Assembly: GCF_028369105.1 (NCBI RefSeq)
Contig: NZ_JAQNDO010000001.1
Location: forward strand, 2,287,711-2,351,710
Direction: 5' to 3'
DNA from: Polyangium mundeleinium
Lineage (GTDB): Bacteria > Myxococcota_A > Polyangia > Polyangiales > Polyangiaceae
Length of the DNA: 64,000 nucleotides
The notes under the pieces are model-generated. The model ran no database searches and was not told the origin of the DNA. It worked only from the letters and a program-made list of their open reading frames with translations. Shown here in pieces: positions 55,064 through 64,000 of this stretch (the stretch's first letter is position 1; the number at the start of each line of letters is the position of its first letter). Both the position numbers and the translations under genes were made by a program.

Positions 55064-56227
55064 TCAGGGCGTCGGCACCGCGATTTCGATCACCCCATCC
55101 GCCTGCCGGAGCTCGAAACGCGACAGGAAGCTCAACCCCAGAAGCCCCTCGACGCCCGCGCCGAGATCGTCGACCACCACCGCCGGCACGCGCTTCGCCG
55201 CGAGCTTGTCCACCGCGATGGAGCTCATCAGGATGAAAAGCCCGTCCTTTCGCCCGTTCGCCGTCTGCAGCTCGACCTTCGGTGCCCCGGTGAGGTCGAG
55301 GCCCAGCCTGTCCGCGAGTGCTCGCGGCAGCGTCACGTAGCTCGCCCCGGTATCCACCACGAAGGACGCCGTCTCCTTGTCGTCGAGGCGAACCTTGGCG
55401 CGAATCTGGAGCTGGCCCGGCTCCATACGCAGCGCCGCGCGGCCCTCGCCCACGACCGAGCAGCCCCCTTTTTGCAGGAGATCGGCGATGCGCGTCCGGA
55501 TGCCCGGCGTCCAGGGCGCACGCGGGTGATGAAAGACGAGCTGTTGCAACGGAAATGCCGCCTCGCAGGGCTTGCCCTGCTTCTCGTAGACCGTCGCCAG
55601 GTTGAGCGGGATGTCGGTGAGCTTCGGGTAGAGCAGGAGCGCCTGGCGGAAATCCTCCGCCGCGCGGTCGAGGTCGCCCTTCTCCTGGTACACCACGCCT
55701 CGCCACGCACGATAATGGAATTGATAAGGCTCGGAATTCACCAGCGCCGTCAGATCGGCCGCCGCCGCGTCCGCCTCGCCCAGGCGCTGGTGCGCGCGGT
55801 AGGTGATGCGCCTCGTCTGCACGAATTCGCCGCATGCAGCGGAAAACGTGGCGGCCCGCGCCAGCACCCCGCGACTATCGCCGGCCGCGAGCATCGTCTC
55901 GAGGAGCTCGAGCGTCTTCGGGCGGTCGCAAGGCTCCTTCTGCAGCTCGGCCTCGAGCTTGTGCACCGAGTTCGAGGCGGCCCCGTAGTCGTAGCGCGGC
56001 TGGTAGGTGCGGTAGGCCCAATAGCCACCACCCCCGACCCCGCCCAGCACGACGAGGGCGACGAGGGCACGTACGAGCGGCGCCCGGCGCTGCTTGCGCA
56101 GGCAATTGGGGCAAACGGGCTGCATGCCGTCGAACTGCCGGCAGACCGTGCAGAGGGCCACGAAGCATTGGCTGCACGAGGCCGCCGCGGGCTGTCCGGG
56201 GTGGGCTTGGCAAACGGGGCGCTGCAT
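55064..56227 (-). CDS. B-box-like zinc finger, TM, TPR and retropepsin-like protein
   Basis: 387 residues. The N-terminus has five paired Cys (CQAH, CSQC, CTVC, CPNC), a B-box-like zinc module (1-45). A membrane helix covers about 50-70. TPR-like helices (LGEADAAAADLTALV, KGDLDRAAEDFRQALLLYPKL) span about 130-240. A clan AA aspartic protease domain follows, with VVDTGASYVTLP and GLLGLSFLSRFELR (TIGR02281/retropepsin type). Retropepsins act as dimers; the target is unknown. ATG at 56227. Confidence 0.85.
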   Translation of the reverse strand: MQRPVCQAHPGQPAAASCSQCFVALCTVCRQFDGMQPVCPNCLRKQRRAPLVRALVALVVLGGVGGGGYWAYRTYQPRYDYGAASNSVHKLEAELQKEPCDRPKTLELLETMLAAGDSRGVLARAATFSAACGEFVQTRRITYRAHQRLGEADAAAADLTALVNSEPYQFHYRAWRGVVYQEKGDLDRAAEDFRQALLLYPKLTDIPLNLATVYEKQGKPCEAAFPLQQLVFHHPRAPWTPGIRTRIADLLQKGGCSVVGEGRAALRMEPGQLQIRAKVRLDDKETASFVVDTGASYVTLPRALADRLGLDLTGAPKVELQTANGRKDGLFILMSSIAVDKLAAKRVPAVVVDDLGAGVEGLLGLSFLSRFELRQADGVIEIAVPTP

Positions 56228-56326
56228 GGGCGCCGTTTTACCGCGAGGACCCTCCGCCGAGCAAGCGTGCGAACATGGGGACCGTACGATCGCGTGGCGT
56301 GAGGTCGCCGATGGGGCGCTTGCGCG

Positions 56327-57001
56327 TCAGCGGTATTTCGGGAGCTCTTTGTTGAGCCGAACGAAGAAGTCGATGATGTCGTCCTTGGCCTGGCCCTTCC
56401 CGAGCCACGAGGGGACGTTGCCCGCGACATCGAGGTGGAAGCGGTAGACGGCGCGGGTGCCCTTGCCGCCTTCGGGCTCGAATCGCCAGCCGCCCTCGTG
56501 CGTGTTCACGCGGACCACGTCGGCCACGGGCTTTGGCCCGCGCTCGTTGGCGGCGGAGAAGCGCATCCACAGGATCGGGCCCTCGGCGCCCCAGGTGACC
56601 TGAATGGTGTAGTCGCGATCGTCGATCACCGGGAGGTCGAGCCGCTGATAGACCAAGAGAGAGTCGGCGTTGCGGGCGAGGACCTTGTTCTCCTTGAGGC
56701 GCTCTTGCCACTTCTGGTGGTTCGCGTAATCGAGCAGCGCGCGGCGCACCTGCTCGGGCGGCGCCGGGAAGCTCGCCTCGGCCGCGAACTCGACGCCGGA
56801 GCGCTTCTCGCGGCGGTGGACGCGGACGCCCTTCTCCTCGCCGAGGAGCGTGAAACCCTCCGACGCGAGCGAGCTCGCGGGCGCCGGAGCGCGCACCGTC
56901 GACGGTGCCCCGGCCTGCGCGGGCGAGGGCGGAGGAGGCTCGGCCGAAGCGGCCAAGGGCGTGACGGCGAACAGGATGGCGAAAAAAGTCCAGCGTCTCA
57001 T
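56327..57001 (-). CDS. START-domain lipid-binding-like secreted protein
   Basis: 224 residues. Signal peptide (FFAILFAVTPLAASA), Pro/Ala linker, then a START/SRPBCC-like domain: GVRVHRREKRSGVEFAAEASF, VRRALLDYANHQKWQERLKENKVL, DRDYTIQVTWG. It probably binds a hydrophobic ligand in the periplasm. 98 bases upstream of the retropepsin-like gene on the same strand; may be co-transcribed. Confidence 0.85.
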   Translation of the reverse strand: MRRWTFFAILFAVTPLAASAEPPPPSPAQAGAPSTVRAPAPASSLASEGFTLLGEEKGVRVHRREKRSGVEFAAEASFPAPPEQVRRALLDYANHQKWQERLKENKVLARNADSLLVYQRLDLPVIDDRDYTIQVTWGAEGPILWMRFSAANERGPKPVADVVRVNTHEGGWRFEPEGGKGTRAVYRFHLDVAGNVPSWLGKGQAKDDIIDFFVRLNKELPKYR

Positions 57002-57412
57002 TCGTCCGTGTCCTCAAAGTAGGTGGATAAATGTGCTCGCGGATCGATCATAACCGAAACGGACAGCAGAAGTCATCTCCTAAACTGTCCAGGATGGCCA
57101 TCCGGTTTAGGATCAATCGAACGATCCCCGGTTTCAGCGGTTGCATATTTTTCGTGGTGGACATACGCACGGTGTGGACCTGACAGACCCTCCGTGGGCG
57201 CAGCTCTCGTCCCGGTTCGCGTCCGGGTAGGGCACCTGCGTTGGAACGCTTGTGTGCACGTCCGTTCCGGGCTGATAAGCCCATTGGCGGCCGGCGTCTT
57301 TGGGGAGGGGATTTTTCCGCTGGTAGACGATGCTACCGCAGGGGCTTCGTCGGCTCGTGCGCGCGTGGGCAAGGAGGGGCCTCATCGACCGCACCGAGCG
57401 GCACGCCTCCCA
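57002..57412. other. Intergenic region with a tRNA-Leu 3'-end-like sequence
   Basis: About 410 bases without a supported gene. Holds the 57208-57238 match to the tRNA-Leu 3' end. A fragment reading VDLTDPPWAQLSSRF before it resembles the start of IS5-type transposases, but only about 15 residues. Confidence 0.5.
57208..57238 (+). repeat. Candidate right attachment-site relic (tRNA-Leu 3' end copy)
   Basis: CGTCCCGGTTCGCGTCCGGG then TAGGGCACCTG, matching 41235-41265 at 27 of 31 positions, including the whole T-arm except one base. No D-arm or anticodon arm precedes it, so it is not a complete tRNA. Confidence 0.5.
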
Positions 57413-58798
57413 TCAATCGGGCGAGAGATACGTGAACGTGACCGATTGATGAAAATCATTTCGGGCGTGGCCGAACCGTAGACCCTGACTGAACGAGATC
57501 TCGTATTGACGTCGGTCGCCGGCGCACATGGAGATGAGCGACCATTCCGGGCCCACCGACGCGCCGAAGAGCACCGGGTCCTGCTGCAGATCCGCCACGA
57601 ACCCAGCCGAAAGCCCTGCGGCCGAGGAGAACCACGGGCTCCAATTGACGCGGAGCATGGCCGGCACGACGACGGAGACCTGGGTGACCTGATAGTCCGG
57701 ATCTTCGACGAATCGGTGCACGACGGTCAGCGTGCCGCCCGTCCGGAAATCGAACGTCGGCGTGATGCCGATGTTCATCACGAAACCCCCCGCCGCGCCG
57801 AACATGAGCGCGCCCCCTTCGGTATACACCGCCATTGCGGGGCTGAACGACCCGCCGAAGTGGAGGCCTTTGCGGTGCCGCGCCACTTCATCCATGGGGG
57901 ACGGTCGAAACTCCACGCGTTCGGTCTTGCCGGCGACGACGGTCGCCTGCCTTTTTTCGCGGGAGCCGCCCGGGTATTGTATCTCGACCTCGTGCACGCC
58001 CGCCGTGACGGGCACCTCCAGCGGCGTTGCACCCACGGCTCGCCCGTCGATAAAGACGTTCCCCTCGTTCGCAGAGCTCTCGATTCGGATCTTCCCGCCG
58101 CCCTCGATCGTCTGCGCAGCCGGGGCCGGCGGCGGCTTGCTGCCATCGGCCGGGACGAGCTTGATCGTCACCTTCTCGTTTGCGCCTTCCTTTACATTGA
58201 CCGTCGTGCTCGCGGGATGGAATCCGCTTGCGGAGGCAGTAATCGTATGCGAGCCAGGATTGACTTTGCGTGGCGCGGAGAGCGCCGCCGCGGGTATCGA
58301 CGCGCCGTCCACGGCGACGACAGCAGCATCGGTCGAGGCGCCGTCCACGACGATGACCAGGGACGGGATACGTGTCGTGAGCTTTTGCGCGAGCTCCGCG
58401 GCCTCTTCGCGGGCTTTGGCGAATGCCGCAGGCTCGTTGGCATCCTTGGGGTGACGTGACACCTGCAACAAGGTATCGCGCGCCTCGACGAGCAGCCCGC
58501 GCTCGATCTGTGCTTTGGCGAGCGGAAGGCCCGTGGACGGGACCTGCATGATTGCATGGGCCGCCTGATACGCCTTGAGGGCACCTGCGTAGTCTCTCGT
58601 GGCAAACTTCGCGTCGCCCTCCTTCATGAGGTTTCGGGCGGTCTCCTTGTCCGCCGAGGAGGGCTCCGCGAGCGCGAGAGGCGGGGCGAGGAGAGCCGTC
58701 GTGACGAACAACGCCGCGGCGCTCGACACCCTCGCAAGCCCCCTGAAGAAACGCACCAGCGTGACGCGACTCGAAATCACCGACCGTTCAGAATCCAT
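57413..58798 (-). CDS. PEGA-domain TPR secreted protein
   Basis: 461 residues from the ATG at 58798. Signal peptide (FVTTALLAPPLALA), a TPR-like N-terminal part (LMKEGDAKFATRDYAGALKAYQAAHAI), a first PEGA-like region (GSHTITASASGFHPASTTVNV), a second clear PEGA domain (GNVFIDGRAVGATPLEVPVTAGVHEVEIQYPGG), and a C-terminal beta-rich domain that could form an outer-membrane barrel. Its start overlaps the end of the kinase gene by 11 bases, so the two are translated together. Confidence 0.85.
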   Translation of the reverse strand: MDSERSVISSRVTLVRFFRGLARVSSAAALFVTTALLAPPLALAEPSSADKETARNLMKEGDAKFATRDYAGALKAYQAAHAIMQVPSTGLPLAKAQIERGLLVEARDTLLQVSRHPKDANEPAAFAKAREEAAELAQKLTTRIPSLVIVVDGASTDAAVVAVDGASIPAAALSAPRKVNPGSHTITASASGFHPASTTVNVKEGANEKVTIKLVPADGSKPPPAPAAQTIEGGGKIRIESSANEGNVFIDGRAVGATPLEVPVTAGVHEVEIQYPGGSREKRQATVVAGKTERVEFRPSPMDEVARHRKGLHFGGSFSPAMAVYTEGGALMFGAAGGFVMNIGITPTFDFRTGGTLTVVHRFVEDPDYQVTQVSVVVPAMLRVNWSPWFSSAAGLSAGFVADLQQDPVLFGASVGPEWSLISMCAGDRRQYEISFSQGLRFGHARNDFHQSVTFTYLSPD

Positions 58799-60341
58799 AA
58801 TCCTTCTCGGGTAGCGGAGTGCTTCGCGGAGGGCCGCCTGGTTTTGCCGACGGCTTCGGGCTTGCCACCGGCGCGGACGCACTCGGAGCGGAGGCATTGG
58901 CTGCGGACGCACTTGGCGCGGGTGGACTCGGGGCGAGCGTACTCGGGGCGAGCTCCACGCGGCTCGAGACCGGCGCGACCACAGGTGGCTCCTTCGGGGC
59001 ATTCGTGGTCACGCTCGCGGGCGCCGCGGTCACGCCGGGTTCGTTTTCGATGGCCGGCGTCGATGCCCCGGCGAATGGTTTCACGGGGCGGTTCAGGAAG
59101 ACAAACCCCAGCGCGCCTGCCCCCGCGAGGCCCACCACCGCCGCGATGATCACGGCCCGTCGTCGCCCCGACCCCGGCCGCCCCGACGCGTGGGCGGCCG
59201 CCTCACCGACGTACGTCGTCGCCGAGGCGGCCCCTCCAAGGGAGCTCGGATCTTTCGCCGCGTGTCGGGAGCCCGCGTCCTCGCCGTGATGCGCGGAATC
59301 CTCCGTGGAGAGGCGGGCGTCGTCGTTGTCCGACGAAAACGACCGATACCCGTTTTCGAGAACCGTGACGTGTTCTTCCCGCCGTACGCTCCCTCCGACG
59401 GCGGATCCACCCCCCGTCGATTCTCCGCGGGCGACGTGACGCGACGAGTCGACCGCCTTGTGGGGAGCACGCGTGAGGGAAGGAGACGACGTCCGCCCCA
59501 GGGCCGCGTAGAGCGCGTTTGCCATCTCTCGGGCCGAGCCAAAGCGCGCCGCAGGATCGTGCGCCAAGGCCTGCTTGCACCACTCGTCGACCTCGGGCGG
59601 AATGGTGTCCACGATCTGGCTCGGCGGAGCGAAGCGGCCAGCTTGCATGGCCAGAAACAATGCGCCGATCCCATTTTCGTCCGAAAAGGGGAGCTTCCCC
59701 GTCATCGCGCGGTAGGCGACGACGCCCAAGGACCAGAGGTCGGCGCGGAAATCCACGCTCTTGGCGTTGAGAAGTTGTTCGGGGCTCGCGTAGAGGATGG
59801 TCCCGACGATCATCCCGGTGCTCGTCACTTCGCTCGATTCGCCGCCCCCCGGCTTTGCAATGCCGAAGTCGAGCACTTTGACGAAAGTGTCTCCCTCCGT
59901 GTCGAGGAGGAAGATGTTGCTCGGCTTGACATCACGATGCACGATTCCGAGCCGATGGGCCTTGCCGAGCGCCTTGCAGGTCTGCGAGATGATCTTGGCG
60001 ACCTCGTCGAGGTGCAGGGGGCCTGCTCGTTTGATGCGCGCCGACAGGTCTTCCCCATCGAGGAGCTCCATGACCATGTACGGGATCCCATCGCCCGTGA
60101 TCCCGTGGTCATGGATATTTACGATGTGGGGGCTCCCTATCTGCGCGGCGCTCGTGGCCTCGCGTTGGAAGCGCATCCGCGTCGCCGGGTCGCTGGCGTG
60201 CACATCCGAGACGAACTTGACCGCGACCTGCGTTTTCAGCCCGAGGTGGTCCGCGATCCACACGCTTCCCATGCCGCCCCTGCCGAGCAGGCGCACGAGT
60301 TTCACGTGCTTCGAAACCGGGTATCCGGGACCGAGGCCCAT
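58788..60341 (-). CDS. Hanks-type Ser/Thr protein kinase with membrane anchor
   Basis: 517 residues. Kinase domain 10-280: GRGGMGSVW loop (20-28), K42, HRDVKP catalytic loop (135-140) with Asn 142, DFG at 158-160, APE-like ASPEQ. A charged linker follows, one membrane helix at about 412-432 (VIIAAVVGLAGAGALGFVFL), then a Ser/Ala/Pro extracytoplasmic tail. Likely regulates the overlapping PEGA gene product or its regulon; this is inference. Confidence 0.93.
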   Translation of the reverse strand: MGLGPGYPVSKHVKLVRLLGRGGMGSVWIADHLGLKTQVAVKFVSDVHASDPATRMRFQREATSAAQIGSPHIVNIHDHGITGDGIPYMVMELLDGEDLSARIKRAGPLHLDEVAKIISQTCKALGKAHRLGIVHRDVKPSNIFLLDTEGDTFVKVLDFGIAKPGGGESSEVTSTGMIVGTILYASPEQLLNAKSVDFRADLWSLGVVAYRAMTGKLPFSDENGIGALFLAMQAGRFAPPSQIVDTIPPEVDEWCKQALAHDPAARFGSAREMANALYAALGRTSSPSLTRAPHKAVDSSRHVARGESTGGGSAVGGSVRREEHVTVLENGYRSFSSDNDDARLSTEDSAHHGEDAGSRHAAKDPSSLGGAASATTYVGEAAAHASGRPGSGRRRAVIIAAVVGLAGAGALGFVFLNRPVKPFAGASTPAIENEPGVTAAPASVTTNAPKEPPVVAPVSSRVELAPSTLAPSPPAPSASAANASAPSASAPVASPKPSAKPGGPPRSTPLPEKDYGF

Positions 60342-60613
60342 GTACAGACGACTACCACAGCTCTCGGTCGGCAGGCTATTTTCGTTGCTCAGCCCGCTGT
60401 CGTTCGGATGACGCTCCCGAGATCCACCGGCGCTGGCATCGCCAACGGGCCAGGGTCGAGCTCATGGCTGTGCGTCGCCCAACAAGTGCGTGGGGTGACA
60501 AATTTTGCTGGGGCGTTCGGGATTGGATCGGGCTCAGGCGACCCGAGCGAGGAAGGGTTCCTGCGGCGGATGCAGGAGCATTGGCGGGGAGCTGCGCGCC
60601 GACGCGCGATGCG

Positions 60614-61027
60614 TCACTTCTTCTTCACGGTACAGTCGTAGAGGGTGACGAAACCGGCGCCATCCTCTTTGCCTTCGATGTCCGCGAGGTCGCCGACCTG
60701 CATCCCCTCCGGATTGGGGATGTTCACGCACGACAGCTTCATCTTCCCATTGCCCGAGAACTGCGCCGTCTTGCTCTTCGGGCTGTACGACTCGAGCTTG
60801 CAGCCGGTGAGCTTCCTCGGCGTGTGGCTCTGGCGGCCCTTCTCGTCTTGCTCCTTCTCGAAGGCAGCGACGTCGCAAACGCTGCCTGAAGCCGCCGACG
60901 CGCCGGCCGCGGAGCCTGCAGGCGCGGCCGAATCCGTCGACGATTTGTTGCAGCCAACCAGGAAACCACTCAATGCGAGCGCCAGGACTGCGGGGGAAAA
61001 AGCAATCATCCGGCTGTTCGATTTCAT
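60614..61027 (-). CDS. Small lipoprotein
   Basis: 137 residues. Signal with lipobox FLVGC (Cys 26), Ser/Ala linker, then a small domain with three Cys (VCDV, GCKL, SCVN, DC) and beta character (TAQFSGNGKMKLSCVNIP, GFVTLYDCTV), possibly an OB-like fold. The ATG is at 61027. Function unknown. A 272-base gap to the kinase gene holds no other gene. Confidence 0.8.
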   Translation of the reverse strand: MKSNSRMIAFSPAVLALALSGFLVGCNKSSTDSAAPAGSAAGASAASGSVCDVAAFEKEQDEKGRQSHTPRKLTGCKLESYSPKSKTAQFSGNGKMKLSCVNIPNPEGMQVGDLADIEGKEDGAGFVTLYDCTVKKK

Positions 61028-61673
61028 GCTCGTCCTATCTCCTTCGGTGATCTTTTCTCGTGTCTGCGGGCCGATAACGGGGCGCAGAAGGATGAGCGGA
61101 ATCCTCTCCGCCGGTCAACCGAGGCGGCAGAATGCGAACAGGTGTGTCCGTCGTCCCCGCGGCGGAGCCTAGTTCTTCCTGTCGAACCGAGCAAGAAGAA
61201 CGCGAACAGGCGCGCCCGTCACTCCCAGCGACAGGACCCTGCCCGGAGGGAGCCGCGACCTGGGCCGCCCGGCGGAACGCCCCCGGAGCGGGGCCCCGAG
61301 AGCACCAGGGCACTATAGGGATGCGTGAAAACAGAACGCCCGAAGCCGTAAGGGACCGTCATTTTGCGGCCGACAATCCCATCCGCATCTCCGTTGGGCA
61401 AGGATTCTTCATCTCAGTCTCCGCGCGTGAGGGTCAGGGTGGGACGAGGAGACCCCGGCGATCGTGGCGTCTGCCTGAGGGAGGGGGACGACGGCACGTC
61501 GCCGGCAGGGTTCCATCAGGTTTTTCCTGACCCGATGGAGACCCCGTTGGTTAGGCAGGGCAGTACAGAGTGGAAACGTTCTTCCCTCCAGACCATGATT
61601 GATGTACGGTTGGTCGCATGGCAACGCCACACGTCGCCAAGGAACCTCGATCCCTACTCACGCGTGGTGCGAC
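61028..61673. other. Intergenic region before the vWA operon
   Basis: About 650 bases. Short open frames have no motif or start context. No convincing promoter or terminator seen. The region is less biased than coding DNA around it. Confidence 0.5.
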
Positions 61674-62375
61674 ATGACATCCGAACTGGTCAGGTACGTC
61701 GACTTCCAGGACAACCCCGAGCCGCGATGCCACTTCGTCTTGTTGGTGGATACCTCCGGATCGATGCAGGGGCCGAAGATCGACATGGTCAACTACGGCC
61801 TGGAAATGCTCAGGACGGATCTGTGTGATCACGATAAAGCCCGCAATGCCGTCGAACTGACGGTGGTGAAGTTTGGCGCCACGGTCGAGCCTTTGGTGAC
61901 GTTCTCGCGGCCGGACGCGTTCGCGCCGCCAAAGCTGGTGGCCGGTGGGCGAACCTATCTCGCAGCGGCCATTCATTGCGGCCTCGACCTGATCGAGCGT
62001 CGCCGAGAGACGTACCGGCAGGCGGGCGTACTGTATTATGCGCCCTGGCTCTGGTGCATCACCGACGGGCGCCCGACGGACTACAACGATATCCCAGCGG
62101 CCGTCACGCGCGTGCAGCAAACTGCCCGCGACCCGGCCACCGGAAAAACGAGAGTCGATCTGTTCATGGTGGGCGTCGAGACCCCGGATGACCCCGTCGA
62201 TCTCAAGATCCTTCGTCAGCTTTCACCACAGCGCGAGCCGCTGATGCTTCGCGGAATCCATGCGTTCCAGGGGATGTTCAACTGGATCTCGCAGAGTCTC
62301 ATTGCCGTATCCCAATCGAACCCAGGGGCACAGGTCTCGATGCCACGCGTCGACGGCTGGGGCACGGTCGGATGA
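61674..62375 (+). CDS. vWA domain protein, TerY-like
   Basis: 233 residues, almost entirely a von Willebrand A domain. MIDAS motif DTSGS at 26-30 (LLVDTSGSMQG), T/D residues in GGRTYLAAAI and CITDGRPTDYN. No signal peptide, so cytoplasmic. Matches TerY-type proteins that go with a PP2C phosphatase and an atypical kinase, as here. ATG at 61674. The stop overlaps the next ATG. Confidence 0.88.
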   Translation: MTSELVRYVDFQDNPEPRCHFVLLVDTSGSMQGPKIDMVNYGLEMLRTDLCDHDKARNAVELTVVKFGATVEPLVTFSRPDAFAPPKLVAGGRTYLAAAIHCGLDLIERRRETYRQAGVLYYAPWLWCITDGRPTDYNDIPAAVTRVQQTARDPATGKTRVDLFMVGVETPDDPVDLKILRQLSPQREPLMLRGIHAFQGMFNWISQSLIAVSQSNPGAQVSMPRVDGWGTVG

Positions 62376-63499
62376 GGGAGGATGCGACGGTAGCGGCTTG
62401 GCGCGTCACGCGCGTATCCGTAGCGGGCACGAGCCATATCGCTCGGGGGGTACCGTGTCAGGACGCCTCGTACCACGATGTGAACGGCGATCTATGCGTG
62501 ATTGCGGTCGCGGACGGTGTCGGCTCTGCCCCACGCTCCGAGGACGGCGCGCGCGTCGCGTCCGAGATGGCCGTTCGCTTTCTCATCGAGAAAGCCGTCG
62601 CACGCGACGCGAGCGAAGCAGAGTGGCGCGCGCTGCTGCAAGAGGCGGCAGAGCGGGCGTTGCTCGAGGTCCGTGCGCTGGCAGAGCGCGAGACGGAAGA
62701 ACTTCGTGCCTTCGCCTCGACCTTGTTGATCGTCGCCGCGACAGGTGAAAGTGCCGCAGCCTTTCAAGTTGGCGACGGGGCGATCGTCGCTCTCTTCGGC
62801 ACTGCGGATCTGCAAGCGCTCACCTTGCCGAAGAAGGGGGAGTATGCAAACGAGGTGCTTCCCTTGACGTCGAGGGGGGCACTCGAAAGTGCGCAGTTCA
62901 CGTTCGTTCCGCAATCACCCACGGCGGTCGCGGCTTTCACGGACGGTCTCGAGGCCTTGGCACTGTCACTTCCGCGTGGAGAGCCCTACGACAGGTTTTT
63001 TCTTCCCATTTTCGATCTCGGGGCGAGGGTCGACGAGACGAAACTCGCGGCAGAGATAGGCGAGCTTTTCGAGCAGCGGGTCAAGAAGCGCTCGGATGAT
63101 GATCTGACGCTCGCCGTCGCCATTCGCGCCGCTGGCAAGACGGTCGAGCCGATCCCCGCGAAACCGGAATCGGCTCCGGGCACCGCGGCTTCCCGTGCAC
63201 GGGAGATCGCCTCGGCGAGAGGAGAGAGCGATCCGTCGCCACCCGCGGAGCCGCCACCTCCAGCGACGCCACCTCCAGCGACGCCCCCCGCGCATAGAGG
63301 ACCGAATCCGCCCACTTCCAGGCTCCGGTCGGTCGTTCTCGGGATGTTTCTCCTCCTCCTGGTTGGCTCCGCCGCGAGCGTCCTCCTGGCGAAGACGTGG
63401 TTTCGGTCCGCAGAGGGCATCGCGTGTGCTCGAAGCTCCGATTGTGAGGAGCCGCTGCACTGCATCGGTGGATTTTGCCGGTTCGAGAGGAAGCGATGA
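62372..63499 (+). CDS. PP2C-family protein phosphatase with C-terminal membrane helix
   Basis: 375 residues. PP2C domain about 10-250: GVPCQDASYH, AVADGVGSAPRSEDGAR (metal Asp), FQVGDGAIVA, FTDGLEALAL, and DDDLTLAV at the end. A Pro-rich linker leads to a membrane helix (VVLGMFLLLLVGSAASVLLA, about 315-335) and a short Cys-rich extracytoplasmic end (CARSSDCEEPLHCIGGFC), an unusual addition for this family. ATGA overlaps on both sides. Confidence 0.9.
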   Translation: MREDATVAAWRVTRVSVAGTSHIARGVPCQDASYHDVNGDLCVIAVADGVGSAPRSEDGARVASEMAVRFLIEKAVARDASEAEWRALLQEAAERALLEVRALAERETEELRAFASTLLIVAATGESAAAFQVGDGAIVALFGTADLQALTLPKKGEYANEVLPLTSRGALESAQFTFVPQSPTAVAAFTDGLEALALSLPRGEPYDRFFLPIFDLGARVDETKLAAEIGELFEQRVKKRSDDDLTLAVAIRAAGKTVEPIPAKPESAPGTAASRAREIASARGESDPSPPAEPPPPATPPPATPPAHRGPNPPTSRLRSVVLGMFLLLLVGSAASVLLAKTWFRSAEGIACARSSDCEEPLHCIGGFCRFERKR

Positions 63500-64000
63500 A
63501 CGGCGGGTTTCAAGGCTCGTATCGCCTTGCGCTCGGCGGAGAACGCATCGAGGTAGGGAATCGAATCGGCCGCGGGGGAGAGGGCGAGGCTTACTTTCTT
63601 GCGAGCCATCCGCGTCTGGCGGCGAAGTTTTTCTTCGAGCACAAGCGCGCTGCCATCGTGCCGAAGGTGCAAGAGATGCTGGTGCACAGGCCCAGGCAAA
63701 CGAGCTTTCAAAGCCACACGATCTTCACGTGGCCCGAGGACCTGATCCTGGACGCCGCGGAGCAGCCCATCGGCTACGTCATGCCGCGCATCCACGACGC
63801 CGAGAAGCTCTACAAGCTCAAGCATCCGGCATCCAGAAAGAACGACAGGAGAACGCGCGCCTTTTTCTACGATCGTCTCGTCAGCATTGCTCGTAACCTT
63901 GCCAAAGCCGTCGATTTCGCTCACGACCAAGGGCTGATCGTGGGCGATCTCAATGCACAGAACGTGCTTGTCCTCGGCAACACGAACGTTTCGCTCATCG
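63496..64000 (+). CDS. Atypical protein kinase of the TerY-P triad (3' end outside window)
   Basis: 168 codons visible. Glycine loop IGRGGEGEAY, Lys in LAAKFF (44), and catalytic loop VGDLNAQNVL in place of HRDLKPxN: the His-Arg pair is VG, but the catalytic Asp and the metal Asn are kept. This is the form seen in bacterial kinases associated with vWA and PP2C partners. ATGA overlap with the phosphatase shows a three-gene operon. DFG-like motif and C-lobe lie beyond the window. Confidence 0.88.
   Translation, partial: MNGGFQGSYRLALGGERIEVGNRIGRGGEGEAYFLASHPRLAAKFFFEHKRAAIVPKVQEMLVHRPRQTSFQSHTIFTWPEDLILDAAEQPIGYVMPRIHDAEKLYKLKHPASRKNDRRTRAFFYDRLVSIARNLAKAVDFAHDQGLIVGDLNAQNVLVLGNTNVSLI

Follow-up and report, generated by a model that had tools for sequence, protein, structure and literature searches.

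Which family do three overlapping genes at the end of a 64,000-nucleotide stretch of the Polyangium mundeleinium genome belong to, and what might tie their products to the cell envelope? The stretch (hereafter the window; G000:C1:2287711-2351710 of a 13.25 Mb genome) carries on its + strand genes for a vWA protein, a PP2C phosphatase and a kinase, each joined to the next by an ATGA, and an earlier note made from the sequence had likened them to the TerY-P triad of tellurite or stress systems. The family, that of E. coli yegL-pphC-yegI, is known; the receptor-like build, with cysteine modules on both enzymes, is the new part. We favour, at slightly better than even chances, the reading that the triad is a receptor-type variant of YegL-PphC-YegI, with an envelope kinase/phosphatase pair and a cytoplasmic vWA partner.

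Family assignment

Both ATGA overlaps described in the earlier note are present in the sequence, the second placing the kinase start at 63496. Reading beyond the window was done in L003 (G000:C1:2345711-2365710), where the kinase gene (L003:5496-7571) ends at window coordinate 65571, 1,571 bases beyond the window, for a total of 691 residues. The naming of a MIDAS vWA protein, a PP2C and a kinase with the loop VGDLNAQN was borne out by Pfam (VWA_2/VWA 29 and 27 bits, PP2C_2 163, Pkinase 62), by the motif itself and by profiles built without the window (vWA 219, PP2C 233, kinase 361 bits), as against 55 bits for the other PP2C match of the genome and 19 and 9 bits for two ordinary neighbouring Ser/Thr kinases. 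The vWA protein holds D26-x-S28-x-S30, T94 and D131, which we take to be the MIDAS. Using an E-value threshold of 0.001, the vWA protein had itself as sole match in its own genome and the PP2C protein one further, weak match. Sequence searches found no solved structure for the vWA or PP2C protein (limit E 0.001) or for the kinase (limit E 1e-10).

E. coli yegL-pphC-yegI has the same gene order and homologous products. The vWA protein is 41% identical to YegL over 223 aligned positions, nearly its whole length, the PP2C is 33% identical to PphC over the PP2C core (E 5e-31), and the kinase is 30% identical to YegI in a BLAST match ending at the CPWC knuckle, which both kinases have. Their motifs pair as VGDLNAQN/VGDVNQNS and LIDVDSF/LIDSDSF (window/E. 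coli). E. coli additionally has yegJ, encoded on the opposite strand between pphC and yegI. The window thus has a YegL-type vWA, a PphC-type PP2C, a kinase with xGDxN, DxDSF and CHCC, and the gene order of the family. The YegI-type tail (membrane segment, coiled part, helix-hairpin-helix) is absent from the window kinase, which has a cysteine-rich tail instead; we treated the YegI-type tail as usual rather than defining, because tail length and hydrophobic segments vary among the other loci.

To collect relatives, an alignment of three vWA proteins was searched against named genomes and the best 80 of at least 181 confirmed relatives were retained, together with eight loci from the own family of the genome and 17 loci from its phylum. 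A PP2C was located within 9 kb in 99 of the 107 vWA loci examined, and a kinase likewise in 99. Gene order was assessed in the first 90 loci, counting the window and E. coli, yielding 69 with vWA-PP2C-kinase, 7 with kinase-vWA-PP2C and 14 incomplete within 5 kb, some of these at contig ends. As the loci were chosen for their vWA similarity and include many closely related cyanobacteria, these counts are not independent. The 69 span Cyanobacteriota, Pseudomonadota, Bacteroidota, Verrucomicrobiota, Planctomycetota, Chloroflexota, Acidobacteriota, Armatimonadota and a Methanoregula record. Five of the seven kinase-first loci come from the own taxonomic family; three of its kinase-first triads (G055, G030, G017) share the three protein families with the window at 34-39% vWA identity and have no four-cysteine module. 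Two triads, from Ruminococcus (L102) and Thermoguttaceae (L103), have two tandem vWA genes with the kinase first. A quick tree of the vWA proteins leaves the sister group of the window protein uncertain, owing to its long branch.

Conservation of the catalytic residues

We aligned 82 PP2Cs and 82 kinases, short kinases being left out. The window PP2C keeps D31, D48-G49, D135, D191-G192 and D243-D244 (each in 80-82 of 82), and the kinase keeps K44 (81/82), D151 (82/82) and N156 (76/82), as well as a CHCC knuckle C318/H324/C333/C336 of the form C-x5-H-x8-C-x2-C (72-76/82). At the position of the DFG motif the kinase has DVDSF, which opens on the final base of the window, with D169 and D171 each found in all 82 kinases. 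The earlier note had named an unrelated downstream operon together with a missing DFG-type motif as grounds for giving up its reading; the next downstream gene is indeed unrelated, but the kinase does have DVD in the DFG position. Among the 99 kinases at vWA loci, xGDxN is found in 85, DxD[ST][FYW] in 94 and the knuckle in 88. The description of the kinase as atypical is thus apt relative to kinases at large and fails within the family, and we discarded an atypical, possibly inactive kinase as a candidate because its motifs are the family rule. We expect the enzymes of the triad to be active.

YegI is reported to be membrane-bound and to autophosphorylate on serine, and PphC to dephosphorylate it, in the accessible part of PMC13232886. 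The view that the role of such triads is little tested holds in part, given these reports and the antiphage activity reported for TerY-P (see below). No signal is named for yegL-pphC-yegI in the accessible portions of the literature found.

Cysteine modules on the kinase and the phosphatase

The membrane helix and cysteine-rich tail that the earlier note saw in the PP2C are both present. Residues 321-339 are strongly hydrophobic (mean hydropathy 2.59 over 19 residues), AlphaFold2 gave a confident core (pLDDT of at least 90 in 210 of the 375 residues) and a helix at 318-354 (pLDDT 72 in 321-340) with a low-confidence linker, and the tail holds a single module, CARSSDCEEPLHCIGGFC; the tie to the envelope is a prediction. 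Past the knuckle, and beyond the letters available to the earlier note, the kinase has a Pro-rich linker, a probable transmembrane segment (about 403-421), four modules of the form C-x5-C-x4/5-C-x4-C (residues 430-519), in which Pfam recognized DUF7107 and EB, and a C-terminal domain (about 557-691). Unlike the window proteins, PphC has no tail, and YegI has two hydrophobic segments and a long soluble part where the window kinase has one helix and cysteine modules. The soluble part of YegI presumably includes a helix-hairpin-helix-like stretch.

A spacing fitting the module pattern, itself defined post hoc, occurred in 103 of 100,000 shuffles of the last 30 PP2C residues. Among the 99 PP2Cs and 99 kinases at vWA loci, one tail of each enzyme carries the module, in both cases that of the window. 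Among the other PP2C tails, L066 has hydrophobic helices and L103 has four cysteines without the module. The nearest vWA relatives in the phylum (40-47% identical; 15 loci of family f24 and one of a further family) have PP2Cs without a cysteine tail and kinase tails that look YegI-like by eye; in L173 the kinase is missing at a contig end, and in L163 it is cut. A short vWA-PP2C-kinase triad (L179, G346) has a 384-residue kinase frame that stops soon past the knuckle, where it contains a single strongly hydrophobic stretch; it is possibly a step between soluble and receptor-like forms. The kinase of the Ruminococcus triad has 18 cysteines in its tail.

Elsewhere in the genome, at least seven other DUF7107 matches were found in six frames (150 of 302 candidates scored). 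All six frames are cysteine-rich, four start lipoprotein-like by eye (L107, L108, L109 and the frame comprising L110/L111), and two (L105, L106) have ends that we take to be like those of MYXO-CTERM surface proteins, which fits a location of the modules outside the cell. The same recurrence would make fusion easy, and bears on the alternative that the tails are passive envelope tethers or anchors derived from local surface-protein modules, the triad working like YegL-PphC-YegI and sensing nothing outside. The proteins in which the module type recurs are long and cysteine-rich, and within the family a hydrophobic tail segment without such modules is the usual state of the kinase (81 of 99 at a threshold of 1.4, window included). 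However, the same kind of module is found on both kinase and PP2C, and four modules plus an outer domain on the kinase exceed what a tether needs. We regard passive tethers as rather unlikely.

The last kinase domain (135 residues) had one weak match besides itself in 115 genomes of the order (32%, E 1e-3). This match (L145; G132:C268:2228-2416) resembles part of the domain and lies in a 480-residue lipoprotein-like frame; if the likeness is real, a secreted relative of the last kinase domain is indicated.

Proposed working of the triad

Starting from what the sequence shows directly (members of three families that keep their catalytic and metal residues and are encoded by overlapping genes, a PP2C helix and cysteine modules), the receptor-type reading would run as follows. 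The three proteins would be made together. Kinase and PP2C would each have a cytoplasmic catalytic domain, one inner-membrane crossing (in the kinase, the putative helix) and disulphide-type four-cysteine modules outside. The kinase/PP2C balance would be set by a signal in the envelope or by the matching ectodomains touching each other; the kinase would autophosphorylate and probably also act on the vWA protein or on a target brought by it, the PP2C would reset this phosphorylation, and the vWA protein would act as a metal-dependent cytoplasmic adaptor. A more specific form of the proposal, that kinase and PP2C have gained the same extracytoplasmic module as a matched receptor pair, one ligand or ectodomain contact setting both arms, we put forward tentatively, as less likely than not.

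Several observations weigh against this proposal. The hydrophobic stretch of the kinase is weak (1.42 over 19 residues, below the 1.7 threshold), and the PP2C tail comprises only about 36 residues, modelled at low confidence by AlphaFold2 and, taken alone, not recognized by Pfam as DUF7107. The module pattern was defined only once the sequences had been seen, and it is absent from the other 98 PP2Cs and the other 98 kinases; as no second locus carries the module, conservation cannot serve as its test. No substrate gene is evident, binding of a ligand or of each other by the modules is putative, and a passive tether would present the same picture as a receptor build.

Both arms of the proposed pair have a parallel in PknB, which has PASTA repeats, and PstP, which has a putative PASTA domain (PMC12088040, PMC6213207, in their accessible parts). 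As in the window, a membrane kinase and a membrane PP2C carry the same kind of ectodomain, in this case PASTA rather than cysteine modules, and the likeness is an analogy of working, not membership. The Pfam scan of the window proteins gave neither PASTA nor an OB-fold. We know of no vWA partner of PknB/PstP. Our search of the literature, limited in extent, found no title or abstract start on paired cysteine-rich kinase and PP2C proteins, and we do not claim that such pairs are unpublished.

Features of the locus

Coordinates of the triad and its parts in the window
Feature	Coordinates	Strand	Basis
vWA protein, YegL/TerY-like, 233 aa	61674..62375	+	Pfam; 41% identity to E. coli YegL; window-free profile
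D-x-S-x-S, MIDAS-type, residues D26-x-S28-x-S30	61749-61763	+	
ATGA, vWA stop/PP2C start overlap	62372..62375	+	sequence; E. coli yegL/pphC overlap likewise 4 bases
PP2C Ser/Thr phosphatase, PphC-like, 375 aa	62372..63499	+	Pfam; conserved Asp positions; profile; AlphaFold2
Predicted PP2C membrane helix, residues 321-339, behind Pro-rich linker	63332..63388	+	hydropathy; AlphaFold2
PP2C C-terminal four-Cys module CARSSDCEEPLHCIGGFC	63425..63478	+	spacing as in two of four kinase-tail modules
Kinase, YegI-like, first 168 of 691 aa within window	63496..64000	+	Pfam; BLAST to YegI; profile
Catalytic loop VGDLNAQN, kinase residues 149-156	63940..63963	+	alignment of 82 kinases
Synteny-break segment	61219..64000	.	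DNA homology to congeners G060 and G056

Comparison with TerY-P and defence systems

TerY-P triads (Anantharaman 2012, Gao 2020) are known to us through the accessible parts of PMC11090510, PMC7699616, PMC10889362 and PMC4978471. They are reported to act against T7-like phages and Autographiviridae (PMC7699616, PMC10889362), and they are hypothesised to be a metal-sensing, phosphorylation-dependent switch, with kinases bearing a zinc ribbon (PMC11090510). TerY-P and the window have in common a vWA protein, a PP2C and a Ser/Thr kinase; the window differs in that its kinase and PP2C are predicted to be membrane-anchored with cysteine modules. Of the zinc ribbon or OB-fold fused to TerY-P kinases, the C-x5-H-x8-C-x2-C knuckle behind the window kinase domain may be a counterpart to the former, and Pfam gave no sign of the latter. 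Calling the triad TerY-P-like was right in a broad sense, but it missed the closest relative, yegL-pphC-yegI.

PADLOC gave no family for the window vWA or PP2C, and as its TerY model did not match the window vWA we rejected membership in PADLOC TerY. E. coli YegL reached only E 0.032 against this model, and among the vWA proteins of six other relatives L102 alone matched (E 0.0019).

Could the triad nonetheless be a TerY-P-like module for antiphage defence? Its three activities are those of phage-active TerY-P, its CHCC knuckle stands where TerY-P kinases have a zinc ribbon according to the accessible text, and its kinase domain matches the PADLOC models mad6 (68 bits) and PD-T4-6. These are, however, models of kinase domains of other systems, and with NCBIfam MAD6 the kinase scored 33 bits against a cut-off of 460. 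The patchy presence of the triad, its synteny break, its low GC3 and the relatives on plasmid-collection records (all described below) are also what a defence module might leave. Against this, a scan of ten neighbours (proteins encoded at window 55064-61027 and L003 7757-19983; two without a Pfam family) found no restriction, nuclease, helicase or other defence domain. The surroundings of the triad are shared within groups of cyanobacteria, which is not the pattern of a roaming defence gene, and the accessible parts of the literature found mention no outward sensor in TerY-P. Overall, we consider a defence module improbable.

The same ten proteins bear on the proposed tellurite/ter stress system. 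We read past 64000, as the earlier note had suggested, and found no ter-type and no second vWA domain among them; the downstream TSP3-repeat gene adjoins the same right flank in congener G056, where the vWA gene was not found. What speaks for this link is the name and composition of the TerY-P triad. We rejected it on the neighbourhood of ten proteins, no whole-genome search for ter genes having been made, and hold it to be very improbable.

Genomic context and origin

Using an E-value threshold of 1e-10, the vWA gene was found in one of six genomes of the genus, five congeners having no match, and in 7 of 60 genomes of the family; with a threshold of 1e-25, it was found in 5 of 144 genomes of the order and 22 of 282 of the phylum (own genome counted in each of the four). 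DNA homology to congener G060 stops at window position 61218, and homology to G056 resumes at 65752, 5 bases upstream of the likely ATG of the next gene. No clean empty site was found, and a simple insertion is not shown, as no congener, among the matches listed, joins both flanks. Eight long frames beyond the synteny breaks had no Pfam match, and some may not be genes. At third codon positions the GC content (GC3) is lower in the triad, at 0.71-0.77, than in six flanking genes, where it reaches 0.795-0.85.

Relatives were found on 50 plasmid-collection records, of which 24 were non-mobilizable, 23 predicted conjugative and 3 mobilizable; this overstates plasmid mobility, since three of the 15 records listed are 4.8-4.9 Mb, chromosome-like E. 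coli records. Three phage-collection contigs also carry relatives, one alone with at least 80% of the protein. The triad was likely gained by transfer, loss in the sister genomes being an alternative that still has to be reckoned with.

The triad is flanked on the - strand by two similar pairs, each a Pkinase and a PEGA protein (57413-60341 and L003:11090-13712, window 69090-71712), and the DNA of the flanking Pkinase gene has many copies of about 70% identity in congeners. Recombination between these pairs could explain the synteny break. Also on the - strand are a TPR protein with a C-terminal retropepsin-like aspartyl protease domain (Asp_protease_2; 55064-56227), a START-domain protein with a signal-peptide-like start by eye (56327-57001) and, downstream of the triad, a 1201-residue Kelch-repeat protein with cysteine-rich repeats and a TSP3 repeat (L003:13799-17401).

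A conserved fourth partner gene was sought and none found in eight proteins from seven of 48 neighbour groups (90 loci). The neighbour proteins scanned were a receiver/DUF4388 protein, a nucleotidyltransferase, a FAD oxidoreductase, an epimerase, two ABC ATPases, a short-chain dehydrogenase and a DUF4236 protein. Among the 25 widest groups, those of 9-29 loci are mostly cyanobacterial, and the largest also takes in E. coli dgcE and other unrelated loci.

Significance

If kinase and PP2C form a matched pair, an inner-membrane kinase of the YegI type would have been turned into an outward-looking receptor. Outward-facing modules on both enzymes suggest an entry point for a signal into a triad spread over many phyla, and the modules may offer a handle for finding what the triad senses.

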